From: Heterotrichella gracilis
Lineage: Eukaryota > Sar > Xanthophyceae > Tribonematales > Xanthonemataceae
Direction of reading: 5' to 3'
DNA: 64,000 nucleotides
Assembly (NCBI GenBank): GCA_032358255.1
Contig: JAULBX010016304.1
Location: 1 to 64,000 of the forward strand
The position numbers were made by a program, and so were the translations under genes. This document shows positions 2,245 to 63,900 of the stretch, one piece after another. Numbering within the stretch: position 1 is the first letter of the stretch; each line of letters begins with the position of its first letter. Under the pieces are notes generated by a model, which saw only the letters and a program-made list of their open reading frames with translations, searched no databases and was not told where the DNA came from.

Positions 2245-5200
2245 TCAAAAGTCGTTGAATATTGCCATCATCCAGTCCAGGCGCGTGATTGACGACTCCA
2301 GCACCTGCGAGGTGCGCTTGATCCTGTCGATGTCCCCCTTGTGCGTGGCCACCACTGCGTCGCGGTTGTCGCCATCAAGCGCTGCAAGCAGCTGCAGGGT
2401 GGGAATTAAAACAATTAGATTAAACCGTGGAAACAGTGTCAGTTAAGCCTTGGCTCTGGGGTGAGGCATACCCAGGCAGGCTGACGTGGCTTCTAAGCTG
2501 GAATGCACGTACGTACGTACGTACTTAGATTAAAACGTTGAGTAGGGGGTAATGTGGGGTGCGGTGGGGTGCCGAGGCTGCACCTACCAGCGCCAGCTAC
2601 CAGCTACCACCAAGCATACCAAAGCTTGATAGGTTTTGCACAGGGCTTTCTCTGCCGCCGCGCCTTACCTCTCGCTCCTTGAACAGATCATGCCCCAGTC
2701 TGGCCATGACATTGGCCACCCCCCGGTACAGTACCATCCCAAGGATTTTCCTTGAGATTCATCAGGGCGTCACCAAGGGCATCGGCTAGGGTTTACATGG
2801 GTTTTGCCGAGGGTTTCCCAGGCCTTACCTCTCGCTCTTTGAACAGCTCATGCCCCAGCCTGGTCATGACATTGGCCACCCCCCGGTACAGGTCAGCGCC
2901 AATCTTATCCACAGTGGCCTGCAGCTGCACCCGCCACGTGTAGATGGTCTTGGATGGGGCGTGGTCCGCCGACTTGGGGATCTCTTGCAGGGTTACAAAG
3001 CCTGCTTTGAGCATCCTGGGGACCAGGGGGAGTCCGCTCGGGGTTTTGTGCATTCAACATGGTCCACCCCAATGCTTAAGAATATCATTTGGAATGGGCA
3101 TTTGATGTGGTCCACACCAACATGCTACGGCATAAGCTGGTGGCTTGGTGTGGAAGCCTTCCTTGTGGTAGCGCTTGTGTATACAACCAACCCTCGCGGT
3201 GGTGGCAGTGGTGGCAGTTGCAGTCTCAATTGCACACTGTACTTGTTACTGTGATAGAAAAAAATGTTTTCTCCAGCCCACGTCTGCACCTAAGCTGCAG
3301 TTCCCTTGCACCCATGATGATGATTGTAAACCTTAACAAAATCGTGATTGCAATCATGACTGTGATTGCAAAACCTAGCTGCAATGGTTCATGGTCCCAC
3401 CTGTACATCAGCTCCCTTGCACTTATGATAAGGGTTGTAACTATAATCGTTATTGCAAATTCTAGCTGTAATGGTTCATGGTCCCACCTGTACAGCAGCT
3501 CCCTTGCATACTTGATGATGACTGTAAATCATTACATAATCGTGATTGTAATCATGATTGTGATAGCAACACCTAGCTACACAGTTGTCACGGTCCCACC
3601 TGTACAGCAGCTCCCTTGCACTTATGATAATGATTGTAAACTATGATCGTTACTGCACATTCTAGCTGTAATGGTTCATGATCCCACCTGTACAGCAGCT
3701 CCCTTGCATCCTTGATGGGCATCATGGCTGTGTCGGCCACCTGCTTCTGCTCCAGCTGGCCTTGCAGCATGAGCAGGCGGAACACGCGCAGGCCATGCAC
3801 TCCAAAGCGGTCCCTGGGATGGCACAGCAGGGAGGTCAGCCACAAAGAGAATCACCTCTCCAAGAAAATGAAAAAAAAAATTAAAAAAAATAACAATTTT
3901 ACAAGAACAAAGCGGTCCTTGGGATGGCACAGCCAGTCAGATAGCCCCTTTCCCTTGCACATGGTGTATCGTTGTGTGTGTGTGTTTTTTATTGCTTGTT
4001 AGCATGTTGATGAGCACAGCTTCCCTCACCTGACCGCCGCTTGTACCATGGTTAGTCTCTGCGTGGCCATGATCCTCTCAAGGTTGACGCAGTAGCTCTC
4101 CCCTTGGGGACCAGACCCCGCGTAGGAGATGAAGTCAAGGTTGGAGGCCATGTCACTGTGAAGGGAGGAAACCCTTAGGGTTGGCAGACGGGAAGGAAAC
4201 CCTTAGGGTTGCTGAGGTAGGGGAAAATGGAGGTCCAGATTGGAGGTCATGTCAGTGCGTGTGCGTGTGTGGGGTAGGATTGTTTTATTATTATCAATGA
4301 CACCAAGAAACCCTACGGGTGGTTGGGAGCAGCCATAAACCATGAGCACACACCCAGGGAAAAGTACAGGCATGCATCGATACCTGAGGCGGGTGGCAAT
4401 GTTGCTGGGTGTGTCCAGATTCTGTGCCTTTGCCAGGCGCAGGGCGGTGCTCTCAATGGTGTCCAGTCCGATGATGGCGGACCGGGCTTCAATGGGCTGC
4501 CAAGCAAAGGGAGGGGGTGCTGTTAGTCTGACAGGGGCAAAGGTTGTCAAATACAGTTGTCACTACATTGAAGCTGCCGTTGCTACCGTCACAGTAATTG
4601 ACTAATTCCAATCCACCACATGACATAAAAGGAGCCAGTGGCCCCATCTGTCCACCACTTCTGCAAAACCCCGCCCCAAACCCTAGCTTAAAACCTACCA
4701 CTTCGCATGTTACCGCCAGCGTGGTCGCCACAATGCACGCCAAACCGGATCTCAAGACCCTTCCCAAACACCACCCAAAAACCCATTCCAGTACCCTACC
4801 TGCTTTTCATGCTGCCGCGTCGCCGCCAGCATGGCCGCCACAATGCGCCCCGAGTCTGCGCCATGCTTCTCTGAAACCAGTTCTGCACACACCCGGTGGC
4901 GCAGGCGGCGGTTGAATTCCTCCCCGTTTGCCCGATACAGCACCGCCTCCGGCTCCCCTTGGTCATAGGCAGGGGATTCTGTGGGGCAAAATGCCAGCAG
5001 GAAGGTCAAAACTAGCCATGCATGTCTCACATTTATACATGCAGAGTTGGTATGCAACAGATGCGTCAAATAGGGGGTTTGAAGGGAGCAGGAGACGCAT
5101 CCAGCTGTTTATGGATGGGTCGAAATGTAAGAGCGTCATCCGTTGCCCCAATCACATGTTGAAACATCATCAAGTCCAATCATATCGTGTACCGACAATG

Positions 5201-8200
5201 ACACCTGAAAGCATATAACCTCCTCACCTGCCACCACTTCATCCACCTCCAGCTCCACCTCCACACCACCATCCTCGGCTTTCACCGCCACGCCCTCCCC
5301 TACTCGCCTCCGCTTGCGCCGCCCCCCCTGCACCTCCTCCCCTGCATCCCCGTTTTCCTGTCCCCTCTTGCGCAGGTGCTCCCCTGCTTGGATCGCGGCG
5401 TCATGCGCGGTGCTCTCAATGAGCTGGCGAGTGGGGCGGTAGCGCTCCTGTGTTTATTGGTTGAAATAACGTATTTCAAGCGCATGTGGGTCCAGATTGG
5501 AAAGTGGGATATAACTAGCAGACGGGTTGAAAACCTCGCGTATTTAAAGTTGAATTCCAGGATTCCAATTATAATAGCAGCTTTATGGTGCTCTTTATGG
5601 GCTGGCGGGTGGCAGACACCTTTGTGGTGGTTGCTTCCAAACTCCATGCTTCAGATTAGGGTCCAGGCTTGGACTTGAGTGACACATGGCGTGTGGAATG
5701 CTTCTGCGCCCCAACCCTTTAAAGGTTGTGTTCTAATGGCAGGATGCAACTTTCCGCACTGCTTACATCAGCATAGATGATACACATAACAAAATTGTTA
5801 GTCCATGCAGGTTGCATGTGGATGAGCTGCCTTGTATTGATGTTTGAAACTCAACCAAATGCTCAGATCGAGAATAACTCCCATACCCCTTTCATACAGT
5901 TAAAAACCTACGCGTCCTACCTGTGCGTAGGACGCCTCTGACCCCTGTCGAGCCGCTGTGATGGGGTCCATTTGGGGGGTCTCGGACTGGCGCGCTCCTC
6001 GCTTCTTGATCGCATTGGGGTGCTTCTGCAGGGGGTGGGGGTGGGGGTGAATGTTGAGTTTGGTGGGTCAAGTGGGGTCAATCCCATGGCTTGAAACATC
6101 AGCTGCTGTGTGTGGCTAGTGTCTCAGCTATTGTGGGCAGTGGGAGTGATGGTACTGGGGAGGAAAGGGATAATGACAGCGTAGCAGCATCACATCTTGT
6201 CATCTCATACACAAAATCGGACTTCTTCCCCCCATGTGGATCATATATCTTCCAGGCCAAATCGCAATGTTTCCGCACCGCTGTGAGCAGGGCGGCATTA
6301 ACTTACACAAAAAAGAACATGCACAAACTAGGTATCTACAACAAGCCACATCAGGGTGGTTCCCGCACCGTTGTGAGCGGCGGCGGCATGCTGCACGGCG
6401 GCACCCTCTCCAGGTAGTGGCTGTTCAGCAGCGCCACAAACATTGTGCGCACCTGCACGTCGCTCACGCTGGCGTCGTCGTGCAGCTTGCCCCGAATGCC
6501 GTGAAGCACCTGCTCCCACCTGGGAAAAGTAAACGAGGTGAGCGATCTGTGTATGTTTGTGGGTGGGTGGTGTGGTGGGGGGATTTACTGGGGGGAGGCA
6601 GAGGGCGCACTGGATGTGTGTCGGGGGTGTTTGGTGGTAGGGGGTATGTGATGGCAAGGGGGTGCACACACTGCATGTGACTCAGGCTGGCGTCATCGTG
6701 CAGCTTCCCGCGGATGCCGTGCAACACCTGCGCCCACCTGGGAAGGGGAATGCTCTGTGATTGTCTGGGTGGTGCAGGGGGGAAGGAGGGAGAGGGTGCA
6801 CTGGATGTGTGTGGTGGGCGGGTTTTGGAGTGCATCGCATGGGATGCTACCATGTCATTTCCAGATGTCCCTATAATTTCCTATCATTTTCTACTGTTTG
6901 AAGTCGATTTGGCTGACCTCAGCCTGCCATGCTCCAGCACCAGTTCCTCCACCTTGCAGACTGTCATAATGCATCAAGAAATGTCCCTAGGGGATTACCT
7001 TAAGTCCCTCGATCATTCCTACTATGTTGATGGGGATTTGCCTCACCTCAGCCTTCCATGCTCCAGCACCAGTTCCATGACCAGCTCCGCCACCTCATCA
7101 AGCTCGTCACGCAGGTGGATGAGGAAGCGGGGGTGGCTGGGGGGGGGAGACACAGGAGGATTAGGATACGCGGGGTGGTCAGATGCGGTGTGATTTGTTT
7201 CCAAATCCACATGTATCACCACCACGAAAGGTGGGATGGGAGCGGCTAGGTATAAGACCGCGTGTTGCTGGCCTGATTGACTTTTGAAACATTCATGGTA
7301 TGGGATACGGCCTGCATGAGGTTGGGTGATACATATGGCATCCACGTGGTGGCATTTCAGAAGCTCTTGCCATACCCCAGCGCTGCCCCGGCACATGCAC
7401 GAGGGTTTAGGGTTTAGGGTTCTGTCCCAAAGACAGGTTGGAGATGCATGTGCGCCGCCGCCAGGGAGGATGATCCAAGAGACGACATGAAAAGTGGGGA
7501 AGCGATATTCAAGACTGCACCGTCGTGGGTGTATAGGTTGCCGAGGTCCCTCCTACTATGGAACAGGCAATACACCCCACATTGCCCTACCCAGAATCCC
7601 TCTCCTGGCAACCCATCCACCCCAATGACAGGTGACAAGCACCATACCCTACGCCGCCCCGCCTATTTCCCCAACCATAGACCATTGACTGCGTGAGAAA
7701 CCCTGTCCCCCACCACCACCCACCACCCACCCAGCCCCGCACGCACCGCAGGCGCTGCAGTATCCTCCCCACGTCCGCCGCATAAACGTAATACACCGCC
7801 CCTGGCCCCCGCAGCGTGCCCTCCTCCCTGTGACTGTGCGCCACCACGCAGTTGTGCTGCAGGAGCACCAGCAGGGCGGATCGCAGGGTGGGGGGGGGCA
7901 GGGGGCAGGCGCGCACCAGCTCGGGAAGGGACTGGCGGCCCCCGTCGACCAGGCTGCGCACTGCGGCCTGTGGGTGGGTGGGGCGGTGTGGGTGGATGGG
8001 GGTGGATGGGGGTGTTTCAGGGTGATGCGGGGTGGTGGGTGCGGGATGAGAGGGGTGGTGGTTGATGCAGCAGCTTGGGAAGGGACTGGCCACCCCCTTT
8101 CAAAGTGGGCGGCCTGTGTGTGGGGGTGGCAAAGCAAAGGAGGTGGTGCGGTAGGTGTGGGGGTGGGTGTGTGGGGTTGGTTAGGGTTTCATTACACAAG

Positions 8201-8779: not shown

Positions 8780-9836
8780 AGTGTGGGTTATTGCAAGGTC
8801 ATGCTGAACCAAGGCCGGGGTCGAATGCCAACGTGCGGCAGTGTGTGAGGGCTGCTATGAGGTTGAGCCGTGAAGTGGTGGTTGAGCCCTTTGACCTCGT
8901 CGCTGTTTACACGGACTCGTGAGCTGCAGCACTGTTTAGGGTTTAGGGTCAACCTGTACAAGTCCGAAGCGGCTTCACCAGTATGTTAGCCTGCTATCAC
9001 GATACTATGCTATCACGGCTACTTTTGTCAGCTCAAGCCGCTATCAAGGCTAGCTTCAATACAGAAGCTGCGCACAAGCAAGCTGTTGGGTCCCAGGTCA
9101 TGGTTACGTGACATGGCTGTGCTCGCTGTACAGCCTTGGGTTCACCCTTTTTCCATGGTTTTCTGAAGTCAAGTTGGACTGAACCCCCACTTGTTGCTGT
9201 GCATGGTACGCAAGGGTGCACCTAGCATCAAAATACCACAGATGTCTGAATACAAATGTCCTCTATGCAAGTTGGGGAAGCCCAAACAAAAACAGCAGGT
9301 TGGTGGGCAATGCGAATCCTCCTCCTAATAGAAACAAACCCAAGGTCCAATATAGCACTTGGAATTTCCTGCTGTGACAAGGCCCCCATACAGAATAATA
9401 CATCTATGCGCCTTGGGACAAAACACCCAAACAAGAGTATGCCTGTGGGCAATGCGCCAAAACCAAAATGGTGCCCGGAAAAATCCATGTTGCGCACTGC
9501 AAAGCGTTTGCTGTAGGCCTATGCAGGGGACGAGAGGGCCCATAGTTTCCCCTCGTTCCTCCAACCCACTGGTGAGTTATAATACAAGGAGCTGCAAGCT
9601 GCTAAACCCTAACCCTAAAACCCTAAATCCTAAAATTGGCCACATATGGGTGCGGCAGAGTGGCCATAATGCTCAGTAACGGAGCATTATTATTAATTTC
9701 AATGGGCATGTGTCCAGTTGATACTGCTGTCCTCATGTGCCTGCCTCTGCCTGCCGTGCCATTGCTGCGCTGCTGATCGGGCAGACTGTGAAGCGCGCTC
9801 CACGGCCATGTGTGTGTTCCCAAAATGCCCCACTCA

Positions 9837-10080
9837 GGGCCATGGTGTTTGTATACCTGGCCCTGGTTCATGCTCTCCACTACTCCCACATGCCCTCCCA
9901 CATGCTCCCCCACATGCTCTTCTACATGCTCTCGAGATCCCAAAGCTCCCACATGCTACCCCACATGCTACCCCACAGCCCCATGCCCCGGTGCCTTACA
10001 CACACAGGGCCACGGTGTTTGCCCTGGTTGCTCTCCCACCCCCCACCCCACATGCTCCCCCACATGCTCCCCCACAGCCC
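9837..10080. repeat. CCCACATGCTC minisatellite and ~170-base direct duplication
   Basis: The motif CCCACATGCTC/CCCACATGCTA recurs many times. A larger unit starting GGCCA(T/C)GGTGTTTG occurs at 9838 and 10008, so the block was duplicated as a whole. Confidence 0.8.
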
Positions 10081-10756: not shown

Positions 10757-10808
10757 TCACTGTTTAGGGTTTAGGGTTTTAGGGTCAAGGGTTTAGGGTT
10801 TAGGGTTC
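10757..10808 (+). repeat. Interstitial TTTAGGG tract
   Basis: About six exact or near-exact plant-type telomere units, ending a dozen bases past the stop of the kinase-like exon. Confidence 0.92.
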
Positions 10809-10819
10809 ACTTCACCTGG

Positions 10820-11025
10820 CTATGGAGCCACACCCTCTGCCAACAACGCCGCCACATCAGCTGCTTGGGCTGCTGCCCCCACGCCCACATCCCTGCAGCC
10901 CTCCAGGTCACACAGCCACACGCGGCCCTCACCGGCCTTCAGCAGGTTCCCGGCATGCACATCGCCGTGCGCCCAGCCTGCGGCGTGCAGCTTCTCCAAG
11001 GCCGCCTGTGCCGCATGGAGGTTAT
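10820..11025 (-). pseudogene. Orphan C-terminal exon of a kinase-like (APH/RIO-type fold) protein
   Basis: One open stretch of 68 codons in phase 1, from an AG acceptor at 11026-11027 to a TAG stop at 10820-10822. It contains LHAAGWAHGDVHAGNLL, the catalytic-loop pattern HxDxxxxN, then VWLCDLEG in the place of the metal-binding DFG/DxE motif, as in aminoglycoside-phosphotransferase-like and related kinases. No exon for the N-lobe or glycine loop was recognised upstream to about 13.7 kb. It is either the last exon of a gene whose other exons I cannot see, or a relic. Telomere-like repeats directly follow the stop. Confidence 0.5.
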
Positions 11026-13764
11026 CTGGGTGCATCAATGCAAACAACACCCACCAGGGACACTGTGCACCTGGCGGTCGCAGCCGATGCACTAGTACTG
11101 TCTGCAGTGAATACGCCAACCGTTGCATGCCATGATCCCTGTGCCTGCCATCAGTAGACATTCCACCACTCGCGGCAAGCAATCGCACTGGTCATACTGC
11201 CAAGGTATGCCAAGCGATGGGATCAGCAATTTTTGTGCTCCTAGGCCAAGGCACATAGGCGCCTTGGGCGCGGAAGGTTGTGCGTCCAAGCCTTGGCACA
11301 TCCACGCAATGCCCTGGCCGGGTCTCCAACCCCTCCTAACCTTCCCTCCCCCATCCACTCCCTCGTTTCACCTGCGGGTCCCTGGCCATAAGCCTGTCCA
11401 TATTGTACTCAAGTCACCAGAACATTTAAATGCATACCAAAATACAAAAGTAGAGTAATATAAATAATAAACCAACAAATAAAGTTATAAAATAATTTAT
11501 TAATAAAAATTCATTATCATTCACTACCCCGGGTAGTGATTGGCATTTTCCAGCCATGACCACCTTCCTTAGGAACAATGCCCAGTCTAACCGCCAGCGG
11601 GCTGTGAATTCGTGTCTATGGGCTCACACAGCGGCTGGCAGAAGGCGCTGATCATTCTCCTGCCCAGGGGGTGTAATGTGTGCCTGGGCTCCATCTGATA
11701 GGCACATGTGGAAGTGACCAGGTACACCAGGTGCTCTTACCACCCTGGTGAATTTGATGGAGGGTTTTGTGGGCAAGGCATCCGCATGGTCCATGGTGTG
11801 CACGTTAGCCAATTTGTTTACGACTGCATACAATGAAGATATCATATGCGTATATATTACGCAGCCTGCCCCTGAACAGTCCGGGCATGTTAGAGCTATG
11901 ATACGGTGGGTAATGAGCCATGGTGCTAATGGAGGTGGCACGTGTCCTGGTGGCGATGCCCTCTCCCAGGTCGCCTTGCACAGGCCCATTGGCACCCCCC
12001 TCCTATCCGGTAGGCTTGCCACCCAGGCTACCCAGGCGAGTCCACCTGTGACATCATAGACATGACAGGGGTGCGTAAGCTGCAGGCGAGGGTGCATTGG
12101 TGGGTGCGTGCGTGCGCCTGGGTGCGTGTCCTGAGTGGCCCTGGAGGGTTCAGGCGCAGGTAGATGGCCCGCACACAGCGCGTGTGCATGCGGTGCAATG
12201 GCAGCGTGGGGGTGCCAGGGACAGGGGCTGCTGCATGTTGTGGAGGGGCGTGGAGGGGCCAGCGGTGGGTACAGGATTCGATTGTGCCCTATTAGGGATT
12301 TCTGGACCCTCCTGGACCGGGAATTGTTTTCACCACCACAGCTCTGTCAGAAAGCGACCTCTCCTGCAGCCCTGGAATGCAACATGGCATGCCTGCTGCA
12401 TGCTCACACTGTGATATGTTATACAATATTTAAACATTATATTAAATACTTCATGGAGTGCGGGGGCCACCCAGAGGCTGCAATCCCGCATCATCTACTC
12501 TGATGGTGTATTTCATGGACTGCAGGGGCCACCCAGCGGCTGCGGTCCCGCATCATCTACTGCATAGCATGTGGCAGGGGCCCCAATACAGTATCAAATA
12601 AGTGGCACTCAATGGCAGTAGCACTTGCCATCCAGAGTCTCCCTGCAGACCCACCAGCCCTGCAACGAATATGATCATTTGCTGATTTGCCGCATTGCTG
12701 AATCAGCAATGCCAGCATGCCAGAATCCCTGACCATATGGCTTGCACAGTACAGTGAGCAAAGTCATCCATGATGAGCAAACCGAGGCAGCCTAGTTGGG
12801 TATCCATGATGGCCACCCACCATCTTCTCCAAAAGCCATGTGGCAAATTCCCAGCAGGAGAATACGATACCGTGCCACATGGCATCCATTCCAGTGCGCA
12901 CTGCTGGCGGCGGGGACAGCCCGCAGCAAGTTGTCATCTTCACGGACACTTAGCGTCGTACGCCTTCCGAAAAGCCGTGTATTGTATATCATATGCATGC
13001 AGGCAAGAGCTGCTGCAGCGAAAACGATAGTCTGCAATATTATAGAGAGGTGCTGCACGCACGTTTGTACTGGTAGTATCACCACTATGTGAACTTCACC
13101 TGAGGTCCTTTCGCTTCCAGGCTCGTTGAACGCTGGCCACCAGCCAAGACGCAAGTGTGAGACCAAACAGGTGAGGTGCAACGCCACGAATGATGCAGCC
13201 CAGGCTTGTATGGTGGGAATTTACCCGTCCACCGATTCGTGTGACACCCACCCACCTCGGAGGCCTCTGCCTAGACCAGTAGTTGCTACTAGCATAGTGG
13301 TATATTGTATAGTGGCAGCCAGCCTAGGCATTTCCAATTGCTTCTGTTACAGTTTCATAACCAGGTTGTCCATATGTAGCCTTAGATGCATTCCAAAGTT
13401 ATGTGCAACACTGGAACCATGGTGCACTCTGTTGCAGATCCGAGTAGGACCATGCTCCAGGCTGTACTTCCTCAGTCTAGGCTTGCAGGCTGAAAAAATA
13501 GCGGTGTTGACACATTACAAACTGCAACGGCTGTGCTGGCTGAGGCAAGGGACTAGCGGCCAGTTCACCAACAAAGTTTGCTGCATTTCACCGCCTGCCA
13601 TGCGCATGACTGCATGGCTTATGCGCGTGCACTCATTATGCATGCCTTGCATGGCGGCCAAATTGGCCTCCTGGAATGGACCAAGTGTGTAGCTTAATCT
13701 CAGCTGCAACATACATATAAACAATTTCAGTTGCTGCAGGTTGCCTTCAACGCACTTTGCAGCA
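11026..13764. other. Gene-poor spacer
   Basis: No supported exon. It holds an AT-rich stretch (11440-11520), a 62-base tandem duplication (12450-12562) and several chance open frames. The longest (13126-13692) has no recognisable motif and a composition unlike the neighbouring exons. The CHRD promoter should lie near the right end. Confidence 0.55.
12450..12562. repeat. Two-copy 62-base tandem repeat
   Basis: Units at 12450-12499 and 12512-12562 share TTCATGGA(G/C)TGC, GGGGCCACCCAG and CCCGCATCATCTACT with a few substitutions. Confidence 0.9.
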
Positions 13765-28854: not shown

Positions 28855-28910
28855 TCACCCCTCCCCCTCCCCCCCGACCGCCACTCCCACCCGCTCCGCC
28901 AGCGCGCGCT
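28735..28910 (-). repeat. Tandem repeat spanning the exo-RecG stop codon
   Basis: Units of about 55-65 bases (CCCATCACCCCTCCCC...CCACCCGCTCCGCCAGCCATT) repeat three times. The first unit in transcription order encodes the last ~18 codons and stop; two more follow in the 3' UTR. Confidence 0.85.
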
Positions 28911-45600: not shown

Positions 45601-47041
45601 TGAGAGCAATGAGCCGACAACCCGCAGCCAAGAAGCTGGCAGGGACAAGAGCTATGAGGCGACTAAATGCGGCCAGGAAGCTGGCAGGAACAATGCGGCT
45701 CATGTTCCTGAATCTGGGTTTAACTGCACGGTCCAGCCGAGCTCACCCACAGCACGCATTCAATTACAGAATAGGTGTCCAAACAGGCTGGATAACAGTG
45801 GTGGCAGCCCTGCTGGTGTGAGGAGGCTTGTGTATGACTACCCTCGTCATGCGAGGGCGGAACCTGACACTGCATGCAGTGCAAGTGGGAGTCAGCCCAG
45901 AGAAGATTCCCAACAGAGCACCACCATGATGGCTGTGCACTCACCGAGCGGTGGCGATGCTGTCACAGGCACAGCGCAGTTGCAGACATCTCCCAGCAGG
46001 CCCAATGCCAAGGAAACCCCAAGACGGGCTGTGCCTGCCCAAAACCCTACTCCAGCCACACCCAAGGCAGCGCTGAGCGATGTGGACATCAACGCTGTGT
46101 GGGACGTGCTGGCCAGTGCTGACAAGGAGCACTTCCTGGCGCAGAAGTCCGTCGCAGCAGGATTGGTTACGGCAAGGGAGTTGGATGCGCAGCTGGCTGT
46201 ATCCCCCCTGAAACCCCTTCAGCGCATGCCATCGCCATTGCCAGTGAGGCGCCCGGCCTCAGCCACAGCCACAGGCACAGCCACCCGCATCACGATGAAG
46301 GAGAACCAAGGGCTCAGTCGGGGCGTGCGCAGGCTGTCGGTCCCATCTGCTGCCACCACCCAGCGGCCGGTACCTGGCAAGCGGCCAAACAGTGCAATTA
46401 CCCGGAGCATGGCAAACCAGCGGGGGGTGAGCAAGGGGTCAAATGCGGCTCAGGTAGTGAAGGCTGCACAGAGAAATCCATATGGTGTGCGTCAACTCCC
46501 TGCCAAAAACATGGCCCATTCAGCCAGCACCAGTGGGCAGATGCGGCCTGCGCCCATCCGGAGCGCAAGCGCTAATGGAGAAAAGGCCGCCCAGCACGCG
46601 CCATCGGCACCTGGCAAACCCTCCAAGTCCTGCTTGCACAACCGCAACCCCCAGCGCCAGGTTGGGGGCCGGTCCCACACAGCACCAGCCCCTTACATTA
46701 ATCCCCAGGCACGCGCACGCAATGCCATCAGCGCAATGCTCATGCCACTCAAGCCCAGGCCTGCCACAAGCAGCATCCCAAGCACATCGCAGGCAGCTGT
46801 CATCCGCCAGCCAGTCACAAACCCTACTAGGGTTTCTCTGCCCTGCCGATCATCGGGCTACGGGGCAGCCCCCAATCGGAGGAGCGGGTCCCGACGCCAG
46901 AGTGGCGACAGCGCAACCCAGCGCACTGTGATGGCTGACATGCACAAAATGCTGCAGAACCTGACTACGGTGGTGGCGGGCCTGGAGCAGATTGTTGCAC
47001 GGGTGCCTGTGGCAAAGCCAGACAGTGACATAATTTGCTAG
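42647..47041 (+). CDS. Leucine-rich-repeat protein with long disordered C-terminal tail (CEP78-like?)
   Basis: Exons 42647-42720, 42913-43098, 43261-43401, 43554-43629, 43874-43987, 44158-44262, 44533-44730, 44997-45094, 45454-47041: phases match, 859 residues. Residues ~60-335 hold ribonuclease-inhibitor-type LRRs: LEDLELIG, LRRLTLANCAITDDGAAEVAAAL, LHILQLPGNQIGARGCAALCEAL, LKVVNFKDNELTPE, LELVDMRGG. The last exon is one open frame of over 520 codons, rich in Ser, Pro, Arg, Ala and Gln and predicted disordered. It ends in a short amphipathic helix (MHKMLQNLTTVVAGLEQIVARV) that could form a coiled coil. The LRR-then-tail plan and the LANC phrase recall the centrosomal/basal-body protein CEP78, but this is suggestive only. 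The gene is divergent from exo-RecG. Confidence 0.8.
43412..43437 (+). repeat. CCCTAAA tract in LRR gene intron 3
   Basis: Three and a half perfect units starting 10 bases after the exon 3 donor. Confidence 0.92.
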
Positions 47042-48518: not shown

Positions 48519-48700
48519 GAAAACAGGTCGGCTGGCCAGCAGAGTAACGAGAGACGAGCTGTGGACACTGACACAAGTTCGAAAGCAGTATCGATAGCTG
48601 TTTGTATACGATGCTAGCGCTTTTGCAGGTTGTATATATACCGCTCACGAAGCTTTTAGCTGTGCTGTGCTGTGCTGTGCTGTGCTGTGCTGTGCTGGGC
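48519..48700 (-). promoter_or_regulatory. Upstream region homologous to 50605-50785 (shared 5' flank)
   Basis: CAGGTCGGCTG, GACACAAGTT, CAGTATC(G/A)ATAG, CTAGCGCTTTTGCAGGTTGTA and GTGCTGTGCTG occur in the same order and spacing in both regions. Each lies just upstream of a minus-strand gene. The right part is a (TGTGC)n array at 48661-48698. Confidence 0.75.
48661..48698. repeat. (TGTGC)n microsatellite
   Basis: Seven perfect pentamers in the upstream region of the small gene. Confidence 0.95.
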
Positions 48701-51930: not shown

Positions 51931-54900
51931 GTGCTAGCGGGCCGTGGTATGCAATGGAGGCTGCCCAGCAGTTGACTGCGTCCAAGACCCAGTGGGGCCT
52001 GGCGCTAGCACAGCCGAGCGGCGCAGACCCAAGTGCTTTCCTGGCAGCCAATGGCGTCCCTGGGGTCGCCCATAAGGCTGGGCGCACAACGCCTGAGACC
52101 ATTTTGGACTCCTTGCTACCCTTGGCAGCCTATCAAGCGAACTACCACGGCAAGGTGTGGCGGAACCCTAAACCCTAAACTGGCACCCAGCACAACTGCA
52201 CTCTGCCAGGCACTCCCGTGCTTTAACTAGTGTGTGTCTCTTTCAACGTCTGTCGTTTAAAACAGCTGTGTCTAAATTGCATTACAGCCGGTGCATCTGC
52301 CCAACAATGCATCACCTCACCACTGCATACAGTCATAATGAGCAACGGTCATATGCGCGTCGCATGTTGCAGGCATCGAGCGCTGTTATTTCGCGGCTGG
52401 CAGACAGTATCGCCTTCCTTGCGGAGCCGGATGCGCACGGGGTGTCACGGCTGGGCAGCGCCGCATGGGAGCGGGCGCTCTTGGAGCTGATGCCGTGGCT
52501 GACCAGGTGGGGCAACTTCCAGGTCGCTGCTGTGTAATGGCTATGTGTGAAGATGGGCTGGGAGCGGGCTGGTCTAGGGCTAAGACCATGTCTGGCAAGG
52601 TTGGGGTTAAGTTTGAACACAGTCGGGGATTGCTGGGTGTGCTGTGCATTCATTTGTGTGCATTTGCATGCAGAGCCTGGGGAGGAGCACATTTTGCCGC
52701 CAACCCCAGCTGATATCACGATCTTCACCCCCATCAGCAAATAACATCCAGACATACACAAAAGTTGCCATAAATAAATTGAATAATTAAAATACTGGAA
52801 CAAGTATATTCCAAATTTGGTGCCAGTGCAACGGGTGTGACAATGCCATGCTCCCCCTCCTACCAGGATTGTCGGCTCAACCACGCTGACCCAGGAGCAG
52901 CGGGGGATCATCAGCCAGGCCTTCAAATCCCTGCTGCTCCAAATCCTGACCCCCCAGGCAGCCCTCCCCGTCCGGCCCCCCACCCCCACCAATGGCGACA
53001 CGCTTCAAAACCCTTGGCAGGGTTTCACACAGGGCTGCACACAGGCCCTGGTGGCGTGGCAGCAAGGGGGGAACACTGGCCTCCCCTTGACACCCACCCA
53101 TGCCAAGGAGGTCCTGCAATGGGTGGTGACTAACCACACCTCCCAACAACTACATACCAAGGCAGGGGCAGGCCTCAGCAACGGCAGCGTACTGGAGGCC
53201 GGCCATGCGCTGGTCAATGGCGTGGGGCCCAATGGCGATGATGTGGACGCTGACGTCAGCAATGGCGGTGGTGACGTCAGCGCTGAGTCAGCAGACGCGC
53301 ATGTGCTGCTGGTTGCCAGGCTGGCCCTTGCTACTGCCTCCAAGAAGGGCCAGCTGGATGGCGCCCTGCTGCAGAAAGTGGCGCGAGTGGGATCAGGGTG
53401 CGTCAAAGGGGAATGAGGGTGCAGAGCTTGAGTTGAATGCGGTGCCTCAGGCATACGCATGCAGTGCCGTCGGCATCGCCATGCAACACCTTGACGTGCG
53501 TTAGCCCTCACAATGCAGTGCTTGTGACCTTCACGCAGAGTCCATGCCTCGACTGCCACCACCAGACACTCTTCTGCTGCCCCACCTGCACCTCCATGCC
53601 TGCAAACCCTCCAACCTTGCAACTAAAACCCTTAAATTTCCCCGCAGGGCTCTGCGCTCCAGCCTTGCCCCCGTGCTCATCCCCAGCGACGCGCCCTCCC
53701 GCCTGGGATCAGCCCCATCCCCAGATGATGCGCCACCTGGCAGCAGCTTGGGTGCGCTGCCACCTCGACTGCCTGCCGCCGCTGCCGCAGGGGGGGCGCT
53801 GGCGCTGGCTGTGGCTGCGCTGGGGAGTATGACTGGTGGGGAGGAGCAAGGGGTGCTTCAGACGCAGGTGGGTATTGCACCATTCGTAGCGTGATCTAAT
53901 GCCTGCCAGCCTGCACCATTGGTACAATGATGATCTGTGACCGATTTAGGTGTTGCTTGGTTCCCGCCACATTATCAGCCAGCCTTGTACACAGGACGCT
54001 AAGCTGTTTGGTCCTGGCACCGTTTGTCTCACAACCTGAGAATCTGCTTAGACCATGTCGGTCCGAAAAACGCATTGCTTGGCAGCGTGTGGGAGCATTG
54101 TGTGTTCCTGGGCATACTGAGCACATCATCCTAGGTTGCTGTCAGCAACTTGCTGATGCCAGTCCTGGTGCCTTGCAGATGGCACAGCTTGGACTGGAGG
54201 CGCTTGAGGGGTGCATCACACTGTGCTGGGAGGGAACGCCAGGTAACACATACCCTAACCCTTTTTGAAGGGTTTAGGAATTGGTTGATTTGCACAGGCT
54301 TTCAAAATGGAATCTGTTACTACGTGTTTGCACTGCAAGACACCCGTGCCTGATGCCTGCCGGTCCAGCAAATCAGTATTATGAGTCGCTCAAATACCCA
54401 TGTAGCTGTGCGCTGGTGTGTGCGATTGCGTTCTGCATTCCCGCAATACAGGTTTATAATATCTTAAAAATGTCCTGGGCTCTAAATTGAGCCGCCAGCC
54501 CCCACCCGCCCAGGTGACGCCTTCAGCCAGCAGTGCCTCCAAATTGGGTGCGCCCTGGTGCCCCCCACCGCCCATGCCCTGCTGGCTGTGGCCGGCACCA
54601 AGGGGATGATGACAGATGATTTCACGGGGAGGTTGTTCACCCTGCTGATGTCAGCTGCCAGGCTGGCGGAGGGGGAGCAAATGCGTGAAACGGGGGAGGC
54701 GCCGGCGGAGGGGGCTGGGGAGGGAGGGAGGGAGCAGGGGGGCCGCATCGTTGAGCAGGCGTTCCCCAAGTGGTGGGACCTGCACACGAATTTCCTGGAG
54801 AAAGGTGAGGGGCAGGGATGGTTTATGTTTGAAGGTTGAGAGGTTGGCAGGGTCTTTTGTGCCAAACCAAGATTCAGAGCGGCGCACTCTGGATCTTGGC

Positions 54901-57900
54901 ACAAGAGACCCTGCAACCTTACGTCCATTTAGGGGGCGAGACTCATGACCCACGTGTCATGAGTCACCCCCTAAATGGACGGAAGTCATGCCTCCCTATG
55001 CACACACACGGTGACACACCCGCCTCCCCTGTAGTGCCGTCCCTAAACCCCACACATGCACACCACACATGCACAAGCCTTTGCGCCCCTCTGCACCGCA
55101 CCCTGACCACAACCCCTCTTTACAACTCTTCCCACCCCCCCAGGGACCCTCCCCGACAGCCCCGCCCACCTCCTGGCCCGGCGACTGTGCGACGCCACCG
55201 CCGCCTGCCTGGCCGCCATGTGGCAGGGGGGGCAGGTGGAGCAGGTCAAGGCGGGGATACTGCCTGCGGGGGACAGCCTGGCTGCTGCGCACGGCGGGCT
55301 TGTGAGTGGGTACAGCGACCTGGTGGCAGGCATGAGCAGCAGTGTGGAGCAGCAGGTGGGGCCGGGATGTCTGAAAATCTCTCGGAATTTGCACACTCCA
55401 TGTTGCTACTTAGAAATGGCAAATTTTGGTGTATTTTTCTCCCGTTGATGGTGATTACTACTATATTAGTTAGCCTGGCTGCTGTGCATGGTGGGCTTGT
55501 GAGTGGGTACAGCGACCTGGTGGCAGGGATGAGCAGCAGCGTGGAGCAGCAGGTGGGGCCAGGATGTGTGAAAATCTTCCGGAATTTGTACACTCCATGT
55601 TGCTTCAAAGAATAAGCAAATTTTGGTGTATTTTCTCCCGTTGATGGTGATTTTTAATATATTAGTTAGCCTGGCTGCTGCACATGGTGGGCTTGTGAGT
55701 GGGTACAGCGACCTGGTGGCAGGGATGAGCAGCAGCGTGGAGCAGCAGGTGGGGATCGTTGAAAATATCTTTCAACCCCAAAAACTTGAGGGATGCACCC
55801 GCGGCTGAGCAGCGCACCTGGTGCGTGCATGCACCGTTTGGCCGCGATTCCAAATTTCAATCGTACTCCCTTTTCTCCTTTGTTAATCACCCCACTACCC
55901 ACGCAGGCCATCCTCCTCACGCTGGGCCGCCTGGGTCAAAAATGAAGGGTTGTTTTAATAACCCTCACAATCCCCCCTATCGCAGGCCATCCTTCTCACC
56001 CTGGGTCGCCTGGGCCTGCTCCTGCGAGCCGACCCCGACTTCTTCCTCACCACCTTTCCAGTGTTACTGGATACCACCAACGCGGGTGCTGCGGGGTACA
56101 GCGGCGCCACCCTTGCCTGCCTGGTGCTGGTCCTGGGGGAGATGGCTGCGGCTGCGGCAAGGAGGGGCGAGCAAGGGGTGTACAACCAGGTGGGTGAATG
56201 AAACGGGGTACCGCGCACCTTGCTGACTGTAAGGGCACCACCACATCGTCGCACGGTGCACCCACCCCACCTCCACTGCTGCCAGCATGTCCCTTTTGTG
56301 CACACGCAGGCTGTCATGCGAGCTCTCTCGCTGAGGCATACTCCTCTCCCCTCCCACATCACCTCTTGCATTATTGCACAAGAAATCCTGCTCCCATGCA
56401 CATCTCTCTCCTGAGCACCTCCACCCAACGCAGAGCCCCCCCACCCACCAACCCACCCACACAGATACAGGTGCTCACCACGGTCCTTTGAAGGCCAACC
56501 TTAGCCCTGGCTTCAATGCAAAAAACCTGTTGTGAGTGCATTCCCATGCCCATGCAGGTCCTTGCCATGTTCATCAAGGTGTACAAGAACCCCCGCTCTC
56601 CCGCTGGCCGCGCCCTCATGCACGCAACAACCGCCCCAGTGCCCGATGCCCAACCTGGTGCCCTGGCACACGTGCTCACGCTCATCGCCCAGGGACTGGC
56701 CACTGCGCCCCCAGAGGTAGGTATTTACCACTTAATATATTATATTGTAAGCAGTTATTGTTATTGTTATGTTAAACAGTTATTGTAAACAGTTCTTTTT
56801 GTATCTGTTTTACACCCGCCGCACTTATGAACCAGGCGGGGCTGCTGCCAGCAATGTGTAATACAATTGAAGATACCACTAGTATAATAACATGAAACCT
56901 TAACACCCTAACCAGATGTATCTTGGCGCCAGGTGCGCCACGAGTACCGGCTGTCCCTCCTCGCCCTGTTCTCAAGCTTTGCCATGATGGTGCCCACGCT
57001 GGAGCTGGACGCCGCACTCATGGACCTCGGGGGCCTGCTGCCCGCCATTGCCGAGGCCAGCAGCGGCATGGGGTCCCGCATGGTGAAGAGCGTGAGTGTA
57101 AGCCTGACGCTTGATGTGATGCTGGAGCGGCACGCGGAGAGCCAGAAGACCATCAAGGTGCGTGGTGTGTCTGAGGGAGCTGGTTGTACATGGGCATAAG
57201 TTACATCATATGTGTGTGTTGTGTGTGATTGTGCACCTGCTTTGCCAGACATGTCCATCAGCAGGTCCCACCATATGCTCTCGTGGGGCCATTCCAATTG
57301 CTGGGGCTGCACATTTCCATCTTGATTACCCAACTCCATAACCCCCATTTACCATTCACTCCCCTCTTCCTGCAGCTGTACCGGCTGCTGTGGCTGTACT
57401 GCGGGGTGTATGGCCTCACAGCCCTCAGCCTACCCCAAGACAAGTACCCATGGCCCGCGGCATGGCGACCTGCGCTGGGTGTGATTGCCACCTCATCACC
57501 GGAGCTGCTGGTGGGCGCGGGGGAGCAGCTGGTGAGCTGGGAATGACATGCCGCGCATTTTACCACCAGGGCATGCTTACACTACTAGATGCGGTCCATG
57601 TAATGCACACTTCCATTATAATTCAGCACATTTGCGTTTAGGGCATTCCAGATGCAGTAGGTTGGCATACTGTCTGGTCTTGGCATGGGCACAAGGGGTT
57701 TTAAAAGGCACATTCAATGGGCACAAGGTGTTAGTAAAGGCACAAATGCGATTGCCATGACCAGGCGGTATGACACACTACTGCATTCTCCCCTCCCCTT
57801 CACCCCACTCTCCTTACCCCTCCCCACACCCTCCCTTCACCTCGCCACACACCCCACCCCTTGCAGGAGAGCCTGGTGATCGAGCGCCTGCAGGGGGAGC

Positions 57901-60900
57901 TGTCAGACCGACTGGGGCGACTGGGGGTGCGCGGTAACGCCCCCACCACATCCGCTGCACTCATCAGGCTGCTGGGGGGGCGGTCCCCACCGGTCCCCAC
58001 CTACGCCGCGCTCTCGGCTCACATGCTCACCATCGCCTTGTGTGAGCTGAGTGCGGCCAAGTATGCGCCCTGGTGGGCGCTGCGGGCTGCCCCGCTGGCC
58101 ACCATCCTGCAGCACGTGGCGGTAAGGGTGGGGTGGGGGGGTGGTGGCGGTCGTCCTGCGGTGGGTAAGATATTAGAGATAGTGTGGTGGTGACAGTGTA
58201 AATGATGTGATGTGTAGTGACGCACAATCTTGATGCCCATGTGGAGACTATCCGTGGCCTGACCACCTCCCTTTTTATCCACTTTTCCTTCCCCCCCCTG
58301 CCCCGCAGCTCACCCCCCCCACCAACAACGAGTACCCACTCCTTGAAGCCATCGCCACCCGCACCTTTGAGGCCTGGTGCGACCGCGCGCAGCACTCCCT
58401 CAGCCACACCACCGCTCAGGCGCTGGGCCCCGCGGCGGCTGAGGGGGAGAGGGACGCTGCCGGTGATGCGCTGCATGCTCTGGCGCTGTGCCTGGTTGGG
58501 CAACTGGGGTTGAAGCAGGGGCGGCCGAGGGTGGCGGCGCTGGCTGACCGGTTGCTCACCATGCTTCTTGACAGGTGGGTGGGGATGGCCTCTCTACTTC
58601 AAGCCAAAGGATTATGGCAGGCGTACTGACACCCTAACCGATGGTGTTGACAACTGATGTAGTCCTAGCCAAGGGTTTGACCGCCCTGTACAGCTAAGCG
58701 AAGCATTTTCATTGCTTTAGGGAATTTTACTTCATTTGTTTTGAGGGTCATAAATGGACAGGCATATGCAACCCTAGCCAAGTGTGACAGCACCTTGCTC
58801 TTCCCTGGCGCAGGTTCCCCTTCTTGCACTTCTATGGCGAGTTCTACCGCAGCCTGATCGGGGTGGTGCATGACGACGAAGCGGCAGTTGGAGCAGGGGA
58901 CTCCATGTTCACCCTTACGGTAAGTGTAAGGGTTTAGGGTTTAGGGATTAGGGTTAAGGGACTCAATGTTCCCCTTTAAGGGATCCCATCCACCCCTACA
59001 GAGCTCTAGCACCACTGACTCCCTGGAAATGGAGCCGGGTCGGAGCGGGGCAATTTGCTTCTTTACTGTTACAAAGCCTTCGCTGGTGAGCTGGAAAACA
59101 TATGCTTGGCTCTCGCAGCAATCCCAACCTCCTAATTGCATAAAAGCTGCAACACCAAACACTGACTCCCTCACCAACCACCACCTCCCCCCTGCAGAGC
59201 TCAAGCACCACCAACTCCCTTGCCTGGAAATGGACCAGGACGGGGTTGGAGCGGGGCGGGCGAGAGGCGCCCGACTACCTGGCTGCCCTGATGCACGAGA
59301 CGTATGAGAGCAGTGGCGCTGCGGGGCAGGCTCAGCCGCACATGCCTGACATCACCTATGTGTACCGCGAGGGCAGGAGGGGGTACATGATGGTGGGGCT
59401 GGAGGGGCCCTACTCAGGTGGGTGGGGGTGGATGGGTGGGGGAATCCAAGGTGGCTGGTGGGGAAATCCTAGCCGCCACGTGGGTGCATCGCCTGGTGTA
59501 TGGACCTTGAGGGCCGTATTCACGTGCGGGTGGTGGGATATGATATGCTATGCTGGCGTGGGAACCTCAGTAATGAGGGGAGGTGGGTAGGTGTGGATGG
59601 TAGTACCCTAGGCAGATGTGGGAACCCTAGAAGAACCAGCGGCCCATGCTGTGTGCAGTGCCCGTTCTGTGGGGCTGGAGGGGCCCTACCCAGGATACAG
59701 TCCGAACCCAACCTACAGTACTCGCCCCTTAGCACACCCACCGTTCACCCAGGCTGGGAGGTGATGCGCGCCAAGGTGCGAGCGGAGGGTATTGTGCGCG
59801 GCATGATTGAGGCGGCTCTCGCGTGTGGCAACACCACCAATGACGTGGCGTGCCAGGTGGCGGCCAACCTGCACTCCGCACTTGTGGAGCGGGCGGATGT
59901 GGGGGTGGTCTCGGAGAGGTGGGTGGTGACCGGTGGGTGGTGGGTGGTGGTGGTGGGTGTGGGGTGCGGAAAGGGGGGGGGGGGTCAGCTGCTCCCCAAT
60001 TCCCCAATTTAGCCATCTGCATGACTCCCAGTTGCCTTTCCAGATGCGTGTTTTAGGGATGTTGAAGCCACATGTGCAGCCTGAGGTCAGACCAGCCTGT
60101 TTGCTCTGTCATCCCCACAAACGTCAGCTCGCTCCCATCCAACCCCCTGCACCACTACCCATGCCCTCTCCTGTCCCCTTGGTAGCCTCCCACCTTCAAA
60201 CACTTTACCCCCCTTTCCCCCCTCTCCCGCCCCCCCCCAGGTACATCCAGGCGGTCACCACCCTGGTGCGCTTCCCAGACAGTCCAGCTGCACGCGACCT
60301 GCTGCGCCTGGTGGCCTGGTCTCCCACATACCACATGGGCACCCACGTGGCGCGATGGGCGGCTGCCAGCTGGCACTGGGTGCTCAGCAGCGGAGGGGAG
60401 GGCAAGGGGCTGGAGGTGCGTGCGGTGGGGAGGGGGGTGGCTGGTGTTTGTGGTCATCTTAGGGGGAAATTTGTGGACTTGGCTAGGGTAGCGTGGGAGC
60501 GCCTGCATGTTTAGGGTGGGGCACCGGCGTGCATCGCACCAGGTGCACGGCTGGCACGTACCTGATTTGCGACTGGCATGTGCACCGCATGCGGCTGGAA
60601 TGCGGTTGACAAAAGTACTGACATATGGCGAGGCGGCGAATGATTGCGGCAGATGATCTACCCCTCTCGTCCCCTCGTCCCCGTTTTCCTTCATCCCCAT
60701 ACCCTGCCTTGCTCCAGGTGGCGCTCATCCACGAGGTTGCCGACGCGTGGATGTCCACCGTTGACCGGCGCATCGGCCTGTTCTCGACCGCCTTTGACGC
60801 AACCAAGTACGCAATGGCGCTGGATGGACAGCCAGACATCGTCACACAGGTGGGCTCAGGAGCCGGGGGTTAGGGTTTCAGGGCTCAGGGTTTAGGGTGT

Positions 60901-63900
60901 CCGACCACATGTTTGGGGAAACCCTTTGTTACATATGGGATGCCCCCTACCCACTTCACTCCAAATCCCCACCCCAGCTTTGACCATCACAAGCTGACCA
61001 TCGTGAACACCCTATCTACCACACCCAACGCATGGATCCCCGCCCTCCCCATGTTGCCCTCTACGAGCTGACCATCGTTGACAACCTGGCCACACCAACC
61101 CCACCCACACACACTACAAACACGCCCCCATCCCTCCATAGGCTTGCCTCCCTCGTGTGAGAAACTGGGCTGCACCCACCATCACCATCACCAACACACC
61201 CCACAGCCCCCCCACCCCCTCCCTGCCCACAGGTTGGCCTCCACGAGCTGACCATCGTCGACAACCTGGCTGCGCACCACCGCTGGGTGTCGTTCCTCAC
61301 GCAGATGGCGCGCGTGCTCATGGGGGGGCCGGGGGCGCTGGCCGGGGCGGTGGAGGCGGCGCTGGCACGCCTGCTCAATTACTCATTCAAGGACCCGCAG
61401 GTAGGGCGGGCTGGTGGGTGGGTGGGTGAGGTAGAGGGCAATTTGCATGGAAAGCTTGGAAATGCTGTAAATGTTGGATGGGAAAGTGGGCCGGCCAGCC
61501 TGCTTAACTACTGCTTCCAGGACCCGCATATGAGAGGGAGCAATCACCCCCCTTCGCAAACACTCTTCATGCGCCGGGGTGAGCACGGGTAAAATTACCA
61601 ATGAAACATACTTCACTCATGGTGTCCACCTGCCTGCAGGCCTTCACGCACCACCCCGCCGCCACCGGCCCCTTCTTCCGCCTGCTGCGCCTGGGGCTGC
61701 AGTACTGCAAGGGGGTGCTAAGGGGGCGAAGCCACGGGGAGGTACCACCCCGCGTGGCGGTGCTTGCGGAGCGGGTTATGCATGCTGCGCTCACGTATTT
61801 CACCACCCCGCCCGCCTACTACGCAAAGTTCGACATTCCGCTGGCAAAGTGAGTGGGAAGGGGGTGGTTGGGGGGCGGGGGCATGTGCATCTGATGGTGT
61901 TGGGGCCAATCGGAATCTATGCCATGCTGTTGGTGTTGCACCTGTGACGCAAAAAGGGTACTTCAATTACACATCGTAGTGCACGTGAGACCCTTTAGCT
62001 TCCCGTTGCACACATGCATTCCTTTCATGCCTCCTTGCCTTCACACTGCAGCGTTGTGGCATGCGGTGATCATCAGTGATCATATGCCTAGGAACTTGCT
62101 CAACAATGAGTTGATATGCAAATTCACATAGAGTACTTGCATAGGTAACAAAAATGGCGTGAACCTCGGCCCAGCCTGTCCTGACCACATGCCCCCCCTT
62201 CCCAGGGAGCACACTGCTGCTGTGCGGGACTTCCAGAGCGCCATCAACTCCTTCTCAACATGGCCGGTGCTGGCGCTGACGGGGGACCAGGAGCACCCAG
62301 TGTGGGGCAAATCAAAGGTGATACCCTAAAGGGTTTTCAGAACCCGGGAGACATTTGTTTAGAGTGGCCTTGGCATCCCCTTAGGGCTCCTCCGCAGGCC
62401 ACCCACTCCTCCCGCAAGGGCCTGCTGCACCATCATCCCTAGAGTTGTCCATTCCATGTTAGGTTTTCCTCACCACCCCAGGGTTTTCTCTGACCCTTTA
62501 AGGGTTTTCCCCCTGCAGGCCACCCACTCCGCCCGCAAGGATCTTCTCAACCTGCTGTTGCGGCACGAGGTGGAGCGACTGGCTACATGGGCAACACCCC
62601 TGGCGCTGGCATCTGTCACCCCTTGTGGGGCCGACAAGCTCAGCCCTGCCATGTGGCGCCAGGTGGCAAACACTGCGTGGGAGGTCGAGCCGCAGCTGGC
62701 GCTGGCGATGCTGGTAGGGTTTAGGATCGAGGGTTTAGAGTCTAGGGTTGTGGAACGTGGAGCCGCAGCTGGCGCTGGTGATGCTGGTAGGGTGTGCAAT
62801 GGGGGGGGGGGGAAGTCTAGTACCAGACACAGTTGCGAATGCCTCACAGGTGGGTGATGCATGTGCTGGTGCCCACCAGTGGTCTGTGGGATGCCGTTTG
62901 CTGACAGGTATACTTCGCTATGGCATTGCTGATGTCAAAATCATGGGGGTCTGAAAACACACCGTTTCCCCCCTCCCGCAGCCCCGCTTCCCCACCTTCT
63001 CCCCCCTGCGATCGGAGCTGGAGGCCCTCTCACTGGCCCAGTGCGACGACCTGCGCCTCCAGCAACTCCCTGACGTGGTCCCCTTGCTTGCCTCCACCCC
63101 CCACGCCCCCCTGCACCGCCTGGCCACATGGAAGACTATGCCGCTGCTGGGGGCCATGTCGCTCATTGCGGGGCCTGCGGGGGCCAACCCAGCGGTGTCT
63201 GATTACCTCATGAAGTCGCTGCTGGGGTGTGATCCAGAGGAGGTGCGCGCACAAAGTTTTCAATTAAGATGGGCAGGATCTAGGGTTTACTGTTGGGTTT
63301 TGGGCCAAAATCAAAATCCAACAGTAAACCCTAGATCCTGCGCCAACAATAAAACCTGCACTTAAACCCTTATCCTGCGCCAAAACCAACACAATACGCT
63401 GTGGTGGGTTCTGTCTACCAGAAGTCGCTGCTGGGCTGCGACCCAAAAGAGATGGGGCCCAAAATCTTCCAGTAAACCCTAGATCCTGCGCCATATCCTG
63501 TGGTGTCCAACTATCTCATGCGCACCAAAACCCTACAGCAAACCCTATGGCTGAGCGCCGACACCATTATGACACCATACGCTATAACCTACACTGCTTT
63601 TCCAAACCTGTACCATATGCTACCCTAGCGGTGTACGACTACCTGGTGGATTGGCTGTTTAGCTGGGATCCAGTGGAGGCGCGTGCATTAGAAGCCAGGC
63701 CAATACCCTACTGACTCTCATTCCCAAACCCTCCCACCCAGGTTGCCTTCTTCCTCCCCCAGCTGGTCCAGCTCCTGCGCAGCGACTCCAGCGGTCAAAT
63801 AGAGGCATTCCTACTGGCTGCCGCCTCCCGCTCCCGCCTGTTTGCGCACCACCTGGTGTGCTTCCTGCGCAGCGAGGCCACGCCGCCCCCCGAGGCGTTT

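Follow-up and report, generated by a model that had tools for sequence, protein, structure and literature searches.

In a 64,000-nucleotide stretch of DNA deposited as Heterotrichella gracilis (GenBank assembly GCA_032358255.1, contig JAULBX010016304.1, bases 1-64000 of that contig; hereafter the window), introns hold diverged copies of the exon borders next to them, and the same pattern is present on other contigs of this 68.5 Mb genome (903 contigs). The best explanation, which we consider probable, is that small tandem duplications are frequent in this genome and that those surviving across an exon-intron border lengthen introns.

According to this explanation the nuclear genome would undergo frequent tandem duplication of small units (150 of 172 units measure 40-240 bp, 14 are below 40 bp and 8 are longer), selection would remove the duplications lying inside exons, and those crossing one splice junction would survive because splicing at the outermost donor or acceptor would leave the message unchanged, with one exon-edge copy and its splice site left in the intron. 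The intron would grow by about one unit per event, the copy would then decay neutrally, and the step could be repeated. From the sequence we infer the origin of all repeats as tandem duplications, the use of the outer splice sites and the growth of introns; the repair of staggered breaks may serve as an example of what could cause the duplications.

Local direct repeats in the window and on other contigs

Final event counts were obtained with a seed-and-extend detector in 53 loci (325,834 bp, about 326 kb), representing about 0.5% of one genome from one strain, with gene models that are predictions. This detector was preferred to BLAST self-comparison, which loses matches close to the main diagonal. 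It found 172 independent local direct-repeat events, compared with 0 events in a shuffled control (one first-order Markov shuffle per locus, all 53 loci) and 20 inverted clusters given by the matching detector for the inverted orientation. Local direct repeats are far above chance on many contigs, and the head-to-tail direct orientation of the copies holds, their adjacency being shown in part.

The window itself has 37 events of any kind. Its BLAST self-comparison gave 26 same-strand pairs within 3 kb versus 1 inverted, and 4 pairs at longer range, 2 direct and 2 inverted. BLAST found 84 direct pairs versus 1 inverted in twenty arbitrarily chosen pieces of 10 kb each taken from other contigs (one piece consisted of N only and one came from an AT-rich contig), and the 18 pieces that were kept hold 87 events with a unit of at least 40 bp. 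If these 180 kb are typical, a rough extrapolation gives about 33,000 events genome-wide (about 0.5 per kb).

Copies of exon borders inside introns

The curated set consists of 37 genes with 163 introns, namely three window genes (PI4K-alpha, exonuclease-RecG and RPC3) and 34 mitochondrial-carrier genes from other contigs. Its events comprise 54 with an exon copy in an intron, 10 that are intron-only, 1 exonic and 4 in flanks, and 20 of the 37 genes have at least one. Both sides of the intron are used, as the donor lies inside the ungapped segment in 20 of the 54 exon-copy events, the acceptor in another 20 and neither in 14. An earlier count based on BLAST had given 37 exon-touching independent events, 6 intron-only and 1 of both kinds.

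A preliminary description, made from the window sequence alone, had reported at least 30 such copies in the introns of RPC3, eIF2B-gamma, exonuclease-RecG and PI4K, mostly spanning the junction, taken from either side of the intron, close to their originals and variably diverged. The copies are real, since the three curated window genes hold 24 exon-copy events (with 1 intron-only and 2 flank events, the detector not being limited near the diagonal) and the shuffles hold none; the figure of 30 is of the right order when repeated copies and eIF2B-gamma are counted, but the independent events in the three curated genes number 24. In 19 of these the predicted junction lies inside an ungapped segment, with two more added by gapped BLAST (at 36783 and 32139), the spacings in the window genes are 73-281 bp, and the divergence between copies does vary. 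The pattern is not limited to the window either, as the 34 carrier genes hold 30 exon-copy events versus 9 intron-only, to which the 87 events of the 10-kb pieces may be added. With 54 events on both sides of introns and a source within the gene, repeated local tandem duplication at exon-intron borders, as it had been proposed, fits the data.

The genes and events of the window are given below (units and spacings in bp). The eIF2B-gamma events, three in number with scores of 21-26, touch predicted junctions and stand outside the curated set.

2245-7967, minus strand: RPC3 (POLR3C) gene; 11 exons used, 6 exon-copy events; PF22536, PF08221, PF05645
2629-2891, minus: RPC3 donor 2829; copy 2629-2731, unit 160-168
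3287-3717, minus: RPC3 donor 3688; unit 198-200, about 2.1 copies, 87-bp repeat inside
3803-3933, minus: RPC3 acceptor 3813; copy 3908-3933, unit 105
4713-4851, minus: RPC3 exon copy; 4713-4741 copies 4823-4851, unit 110, junction outside, score 21
6445-6818, minus: RPC3 acceptor 6519; copy 6662-6818, unit 191-218
6874-7076, minus: RPC3 donor 7047; copy 6874-6947, unit 127-129
20502-20591, plus: eIF2B-gamma predicted donor 20520; copy 20560-20591, unit 58; outside the curated count
21259-21363, plus: eIF2B-gamma predicted donor 21275; copy 21335-21363, unit 76; weak, score 21
22870-23064, plus: eIF2B-gamma predicted acceptor 23047; copy 22870-22918, unit 146-147; detector event 22878-23064
28859-41347, minus: exonuclease-RecG fusion gene; part 28859-38917 used, 17 exons, 8 exon-copy events
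29659-29890, minus: RecG donor 29856; copy 29659-29782, unit 108-114; BLAST only, outside the 24-event count
30118-30464, minus: RecG donor 30356; copy 30118-30221, unit 227-243
32008-32197, minus: RecG donor 32139; copy 32008-32085, unit 107-112
33276-33410, minus: RecG donor 33367; copy 33276-33327, unit 83; other end of the curated exon uncertain
34518-34895, minus: RecG donor 34761; copy 34518-34672, unit 233-234
34947-35248, minus: RecG acceptor 34990; intronic copies about 102 and 234 bp off
36198-36368, minus: RecG acceptor 36240; unit 92, 1.9 copies, 95% matches; the translated copy is a repeated peptide
36529-36908, minus: RecG donor 36783; 36529-36700 copies 36738-36908, unit 208-216
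38226-38582, minus: RecG acceptor 38294; copy 38507-38582, spacing 281; weak; dispersed element 38314-38382 in the spacer
51972-63999, plus: PI4K-alpha gene, 5' part; 24 curated exons, 10 exon-copy events; Myrmecia homologue P0121, 37% identity
55275-55754, plus: PI4K donor 55355; exon end, donor and intron start, about 2.4 copies, unit 196-197
55902-56014, plus: PI4K acceptor 55986; 55902-55935 copies 55981-56014, unit 79
56817-57048, plus: PI4K exon copy; 56817-56855 copies 57010-57048, unit 193, junction outside
58993-59257, plus: PI4K acceptor 59198; intronic copy 58993-59051, unit 196
59393-59694, plus: PI4K donor 59417; copy 59669-59694, spacing 276; weak, score 24
61008-61279, plus: PI4K acceptor 61233; intronic copy 61008-61097, unit 175-180
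61361-61528, plus: PI4K exon end beside donor 61400; copy 61490-61528, unit 129
62389-62552, plus: PI4K acceptor 62519; copy 62389-62431, unit 121
62677-62806, plus: PI4K donor 62713; copy 62750-62806, unit 73
63183-63687, plus: PI4K donor 63242; copies 63421-63475 and 63619-63687, unit 209; tandem homology kept in the gap (z 5.9)

At 36198-36368 green-algal RecG proteins align by tblastn with one copy, where two are present here. In PI4K the inner donor copies at 55552-55553 and 55748-55749 read AG/GT and were called by the gene finder as zero-length exons; they are possible recursive or decoy splice points. A carrier gene at L026:1-3501 has border duplications at five junctions, several copies of which the gene finder takes as exons. 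Beyond the four named genes, the window has tandem duplications at 43699-43800, 45603-45693 and 12447-12561 (units of 64, 45 and 62 bp).

Unit sizes

The units form two humps, at about 60-120 and 170-220 bp, with preferred sizes near 100 and 195 bp that supersede the modes of 114 and 190 bp obtained from the BLAST list. A single mode is rejected by Silverman's test (P = 0.004, 153 units of 40-300 bp), and only 13 of the 102 units of 90-220 bp lie within 125-167 bp (P = 3e-6 versus a flat distribution, the bounds of this trough having been picked after the data were seen). The drop above 240 bp is not a detection limit, because longer units are easier to see. By analogy, the preferred sizes recall the nucleosome repeat.

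Geometry and targeting of splice junctions

A harmless exon copy in an intron requires a block crossing one junction, and a junction bias is therefore expected without any targeting. A simple simulation was made in which blocks of the observed unit sizes were placed uniformly, exon-breaking ones were removed, decay was applied with codon positions 1 and 2 of exons evolving slowly, and the same detector was used. The expected share of exon-touching events was 53-56%, compared with the 84% seen (54 of 64, leaving out the 4 flank events and the exonic one), which amounts to an about four-fold excess in odds. The probability of 54 of 64 is about 1e-6 at an expected share of 0.56, 2e-5 at 0.60 and 5e-4 at 0.65. 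The excess is weaker in the carrier genes alone (30 of 39), for which P = 0.002, 0.006, 0.02 and 0.08 at expected shares of 0.53, 0.56, 0.60 and 0.65 respectively. In an earlier BLAST Monte Carlo, now superseded, 37 of 44 viable pairs were at a junction versus 50% expected (range 38-63%).

Consequently, the preliminary statement that chance or selection would not keep choosing the junction is overstated, since geometry, purging and the slower decay of exons already predict more than half of the events there. Junction hitting is largely geometry, and most of it needs no targeting; a residual excess is left over, larger or smaller according to the decay model, and this excess suggests a process biased toward exon-containing DNA.

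Over the cause of this excess, and over nothing else, the best explanation competes with duplication aimed at exon-intron borders through transcription, splicing or exon-placed nucleosomes, a possibility that we take seriously but do not favour. In addition to the share of exon-touching events and the grouping of unit sizes near 100 and 195 bp, targeting is favoured by the finding that, of 108 BLAST pairs from the 18 ten-kb pieces and the window, 50% have a single exonic copy, compared with 28% under random placement with purging ignored. Four loci (L006, L018, L019 and L020, picked after the counts were seen) with few telomere-like intron motifs, which together have 1 event of unit at least 40 bp in 40 kb, point the same way; however, two of them, L018 and L020, hold gene pieces (TauE, WD40). 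On the other hand, donor and acceptor counts are equal, the exonic copy ends look spread out by eye, and coding density and duplication count show no significant correlation across 18 loci (rho 0.25, P = 0.32). An intron decay faster than the model assumes would also shrink the excess, which in the carriers is already down to P = 0.08 if the expected share is 0.65. A broader proposal appears rather unlikely, namely that a genome-wide mutational process associated with transcription, with splicing or with nucleosomes positioned on exons preferentially duplicates blocks of about 100 or 195 bp over borders and is a main engine of intron growth in this lineage.

Decay of the copies and growth of introns

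In 44 exon-intron pairs, some of which share a junction, the mismatch is 0.133, 0.117 and 0.243 at the three codon positions, and 0.218 in the intron-intron part. Divergence at codon positions 1 and 2 is thus about half that at position 3, the pattern expected when one copy is neutral and the other constrained. The intronic copies look neutral, with a drift of about 12%, and the exon changes are mostly at silent sites. These values also make it very improbable that selection maintains the intronic copies as functional exons, whether alternative or decoy. GT or AG is kept in 23 of 29 copies and several copies are called exons by the gene finder, as such a function would have it, but the fraction kept (0.79) is near the 0.77 that, by our own arithmetic, 12% drift predicts. 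Conserved 4-mers within the copies are suggestive only. Some pairs are 92-98% identical, and an ongoing duplication process, as the preliminary description had supposed, is plausible from such identities.

Border duplications probably lengthen introns. A readable duplication is present in 39 of the 163 curated introns, about a quarter, and mean intron length is 489 bp where a duplication detected by BLAST overlaps the intron (n = 39) versus 309 bp elsewhere (n = 124). This gap of roughly one unit fits the lengthening suggested earlier.

Several observations nevertheless weigh against simple tandem duplication followed by neutral decay. The difference in intron length is no proof of growth, as long introns also give duplications more room, and the excess of exon-touching events is left unexplained by geometry and detectability. 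Many high-identity copies are parted by a spacer of 22-197 bp that is nearly without homology to its flanks and is on average AT-richer (GC 0.495 versus 0.596-0.606 in the copies). Residual homology at P < 0.05 was found in 6 of 24 pairs on the tandem-predicted side of the spacer and in 3 of 24 on the opposite side, the predicted side being barely better (mean z 1.25 versus 0.86). We read the spacers as intronic portions of the tandem unit that have since decayed, although for many pairs the fit of this scheme is loose and newly added filler is possible. Furthermore, the gene finder takes several of the inner copies for exons, so that actual splicing may not follow the assumed scheme.

Other origins of the repeats

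Copies flanking a spacer without visible homology would also be expected if introner-like mobile elements inserted beside junctions, the repeats then being long target-site duplications, and the spacer of one weak window event (38302-38506) does hold a dispersed element. Nevertheless, of 132 spacers of at least 20 bp, only 2 overlap any sequence similarity found among the 53 loci (about 0.5% of the genome), that dispersed element accounting for one of the two, and the one spacer searched genome-wide (from L041) occurs once. The repeats, at 30-150 bp, are also far above the 3-9 bp given for introner target-site duplications (PMC9860276), and a mobile element is accordingly held to be highly unlikely.

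Even less credence is given to the creation of new introns by tandem duplication of AGGT-containing exon pieces (the Rogers model), which is one proposed route and for which the common AG/G at junctions would speak. In an anchored-identity test over 40 bp with the consensus excluded (120 introns of 23 genes), identity was 0.249 between exon end and intron end and 0.237 between intron start and next exon, against 0.248 for mismatched introns. Donor/acceptor identity is at background, so that intron creation by duplication of AG/GT, which the preliminary description had offered together with lengthening, does not find support; the test is blind to old creation events.

Telomerase-capped breaks at the duplication join were tried as a source and rejected, as the same strand bias of telomere-like motifs occurs in introns without duplications and the C-rich motif lies at branch-site distance. 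These motifs are denser near the inferred join and seemingly oriented there (9 events, P = 0.048), and duplications and motifs correlate across the 18 loci (rho 0.68), a correlation that probably reflects shared intron content.

Other elements in the window and sampled loci

The telomere-like motif AAACCCT/AGGGTTT is itself abundant in the introns (150 occurrences versus 17 expected, in 63 of 163 introns), its C-rich strand peaking 20-60 bp before acceptors, the usual branch-site zone, and its G-rich strand being commonest near donors. Runs in the window, not all within curated introns, include 10762-10807, 20528-20560, 33519-33576, 38999-39027, 41089-41113 and 58927-58961. A SINE-like dispersed element with at least 42 genomic matches is found at L004:7060-7240 and twice in the window, at 29387-29477 and 39531-39603, one copy lying in a RecG intron and one between predicted upstream RecG exons. 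Other short dispersed elements (38314-38382, 39801-39866, 2428-2522 and 20981-21077) are shared with L016/L036, L014 and L015. Microsatellites of TAT and GCTGT occur at 1-77 and 48659-48697. At 28859-38917 an exonuclease domain (PF00929) is fused to a RecG helicase, and the same combination, with PF00270/PF00271, is present in the best green-algal matches.

Samples and gene models

The carrier genes come from a PF00153 search giving 39 loci, of which 34 were kept and 5, single-exon-looking or with few hits, were left out. Loci L001, L002 (on the AT-rich contig C1), L003 (entirely N) and L042 were left out before counting. Contig C1 measures 894 kb, with 35.7% GC in the piece read (L002, C1:50001-60000), unlike the other pieces, and possibly belongs to another replicon or organism. 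Gene models were made with a small gene finder written by the author and trained on carrier exons; for RecG and PI4K they were compared with green-algal proteins by tblastn, for RPC3 and eIF2B-gamma Pfam served as the check, and pseudo-exons and terminal stubs were taken out by hand, guided by homology. Low-complexity segments were filtered from the event lists. The anchored-identity test leaves out one RecG intron whose acceptor is not AG, which was kept in the later gene set. No Pfam match was obtained for ten long reading frames, and one PDB search returned two FLOWERING LOCUS T sequences.

In Trebouxia, Myrmecia and Apatococcus, RecG homologues show 51-59% identity across 40-47% of the query. 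For the ADP/ATP carrier, identity reaches 82-84% in Botryococcus, Trebouxia, Coccomyxa and Parachlorella. The best-scoring match of the carrier bears a bird label at 65% identity, and the algal matches were used for placement. By these protein identities, therefore, the sequenced nuclear genome is that of a trebouxiophyte-like green alga.

Discussion

Tandem duplication is treated as a route of intron creation in a review of intron gain (PMC3443670), and the tandem genomic duplication model is attributed to Rogers 1989, Hellsten 2011 and Gao and Lynch 2009 (per PMC3443670, PMC4974935). Small tandem duplications in genes, with AG/GT often in the copy, are shared with that model, whereas the donor-acceptor match that it predicts is absent here and existing introns appear lengthened. 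A close case is the potato RdRp gene, where a tandem duplication over an intron-exon boundary, its copy carrying splice signals, gave a new intron from a cryptic donor (PMC4974935). The duplications described here likewise cross the border and carry splice signals in the copy, but the potato case concerns one gene and a new intron, while here there are many events and no new-intron signature. Single border-crossing duplications are thus already known (PMC4974935), and what appears new here is the scale; searches of open-licence papers found none describing introns lengthened across a genome by duplications of this type.

Direct repeats of 4-30 bp near splice sites are described in a 2025 paper (PMC11782384). 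Introners, which share sequence, show 3-9 bp target-site duplications in some families and are discussed in terms of a nucleosome-linker bias, likewise represent large-scale intron change, algae included; here, by contrast, no shared element was found among the loci covered, the direct repeats are far longer than 3-9 bp and the copied sequence is local (PMC9860276). In mouse and human cells, CST/Pol-alpha fill-in at Cas9-made breaks with 3' overhangs leads to small tandem duplications (PMC8355091). Both cases involve short direct tandem duplications in eukaryotic DNA, but the former are in mammalian cells with Cas9 breaks, and the likeness to the alga lies in the form of the repeats.

Intron growth is usually credited to transposons or drift. 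Readable duplications could date and size each step of intron growth. A single genome would then allow measurement of rates, of unit sizes and of what becomes of copied splice sites, and competing models of intron evolution could be tested between strains. Taken together, the introns of this alga would constitute an unusually rich natural record of intron size change.

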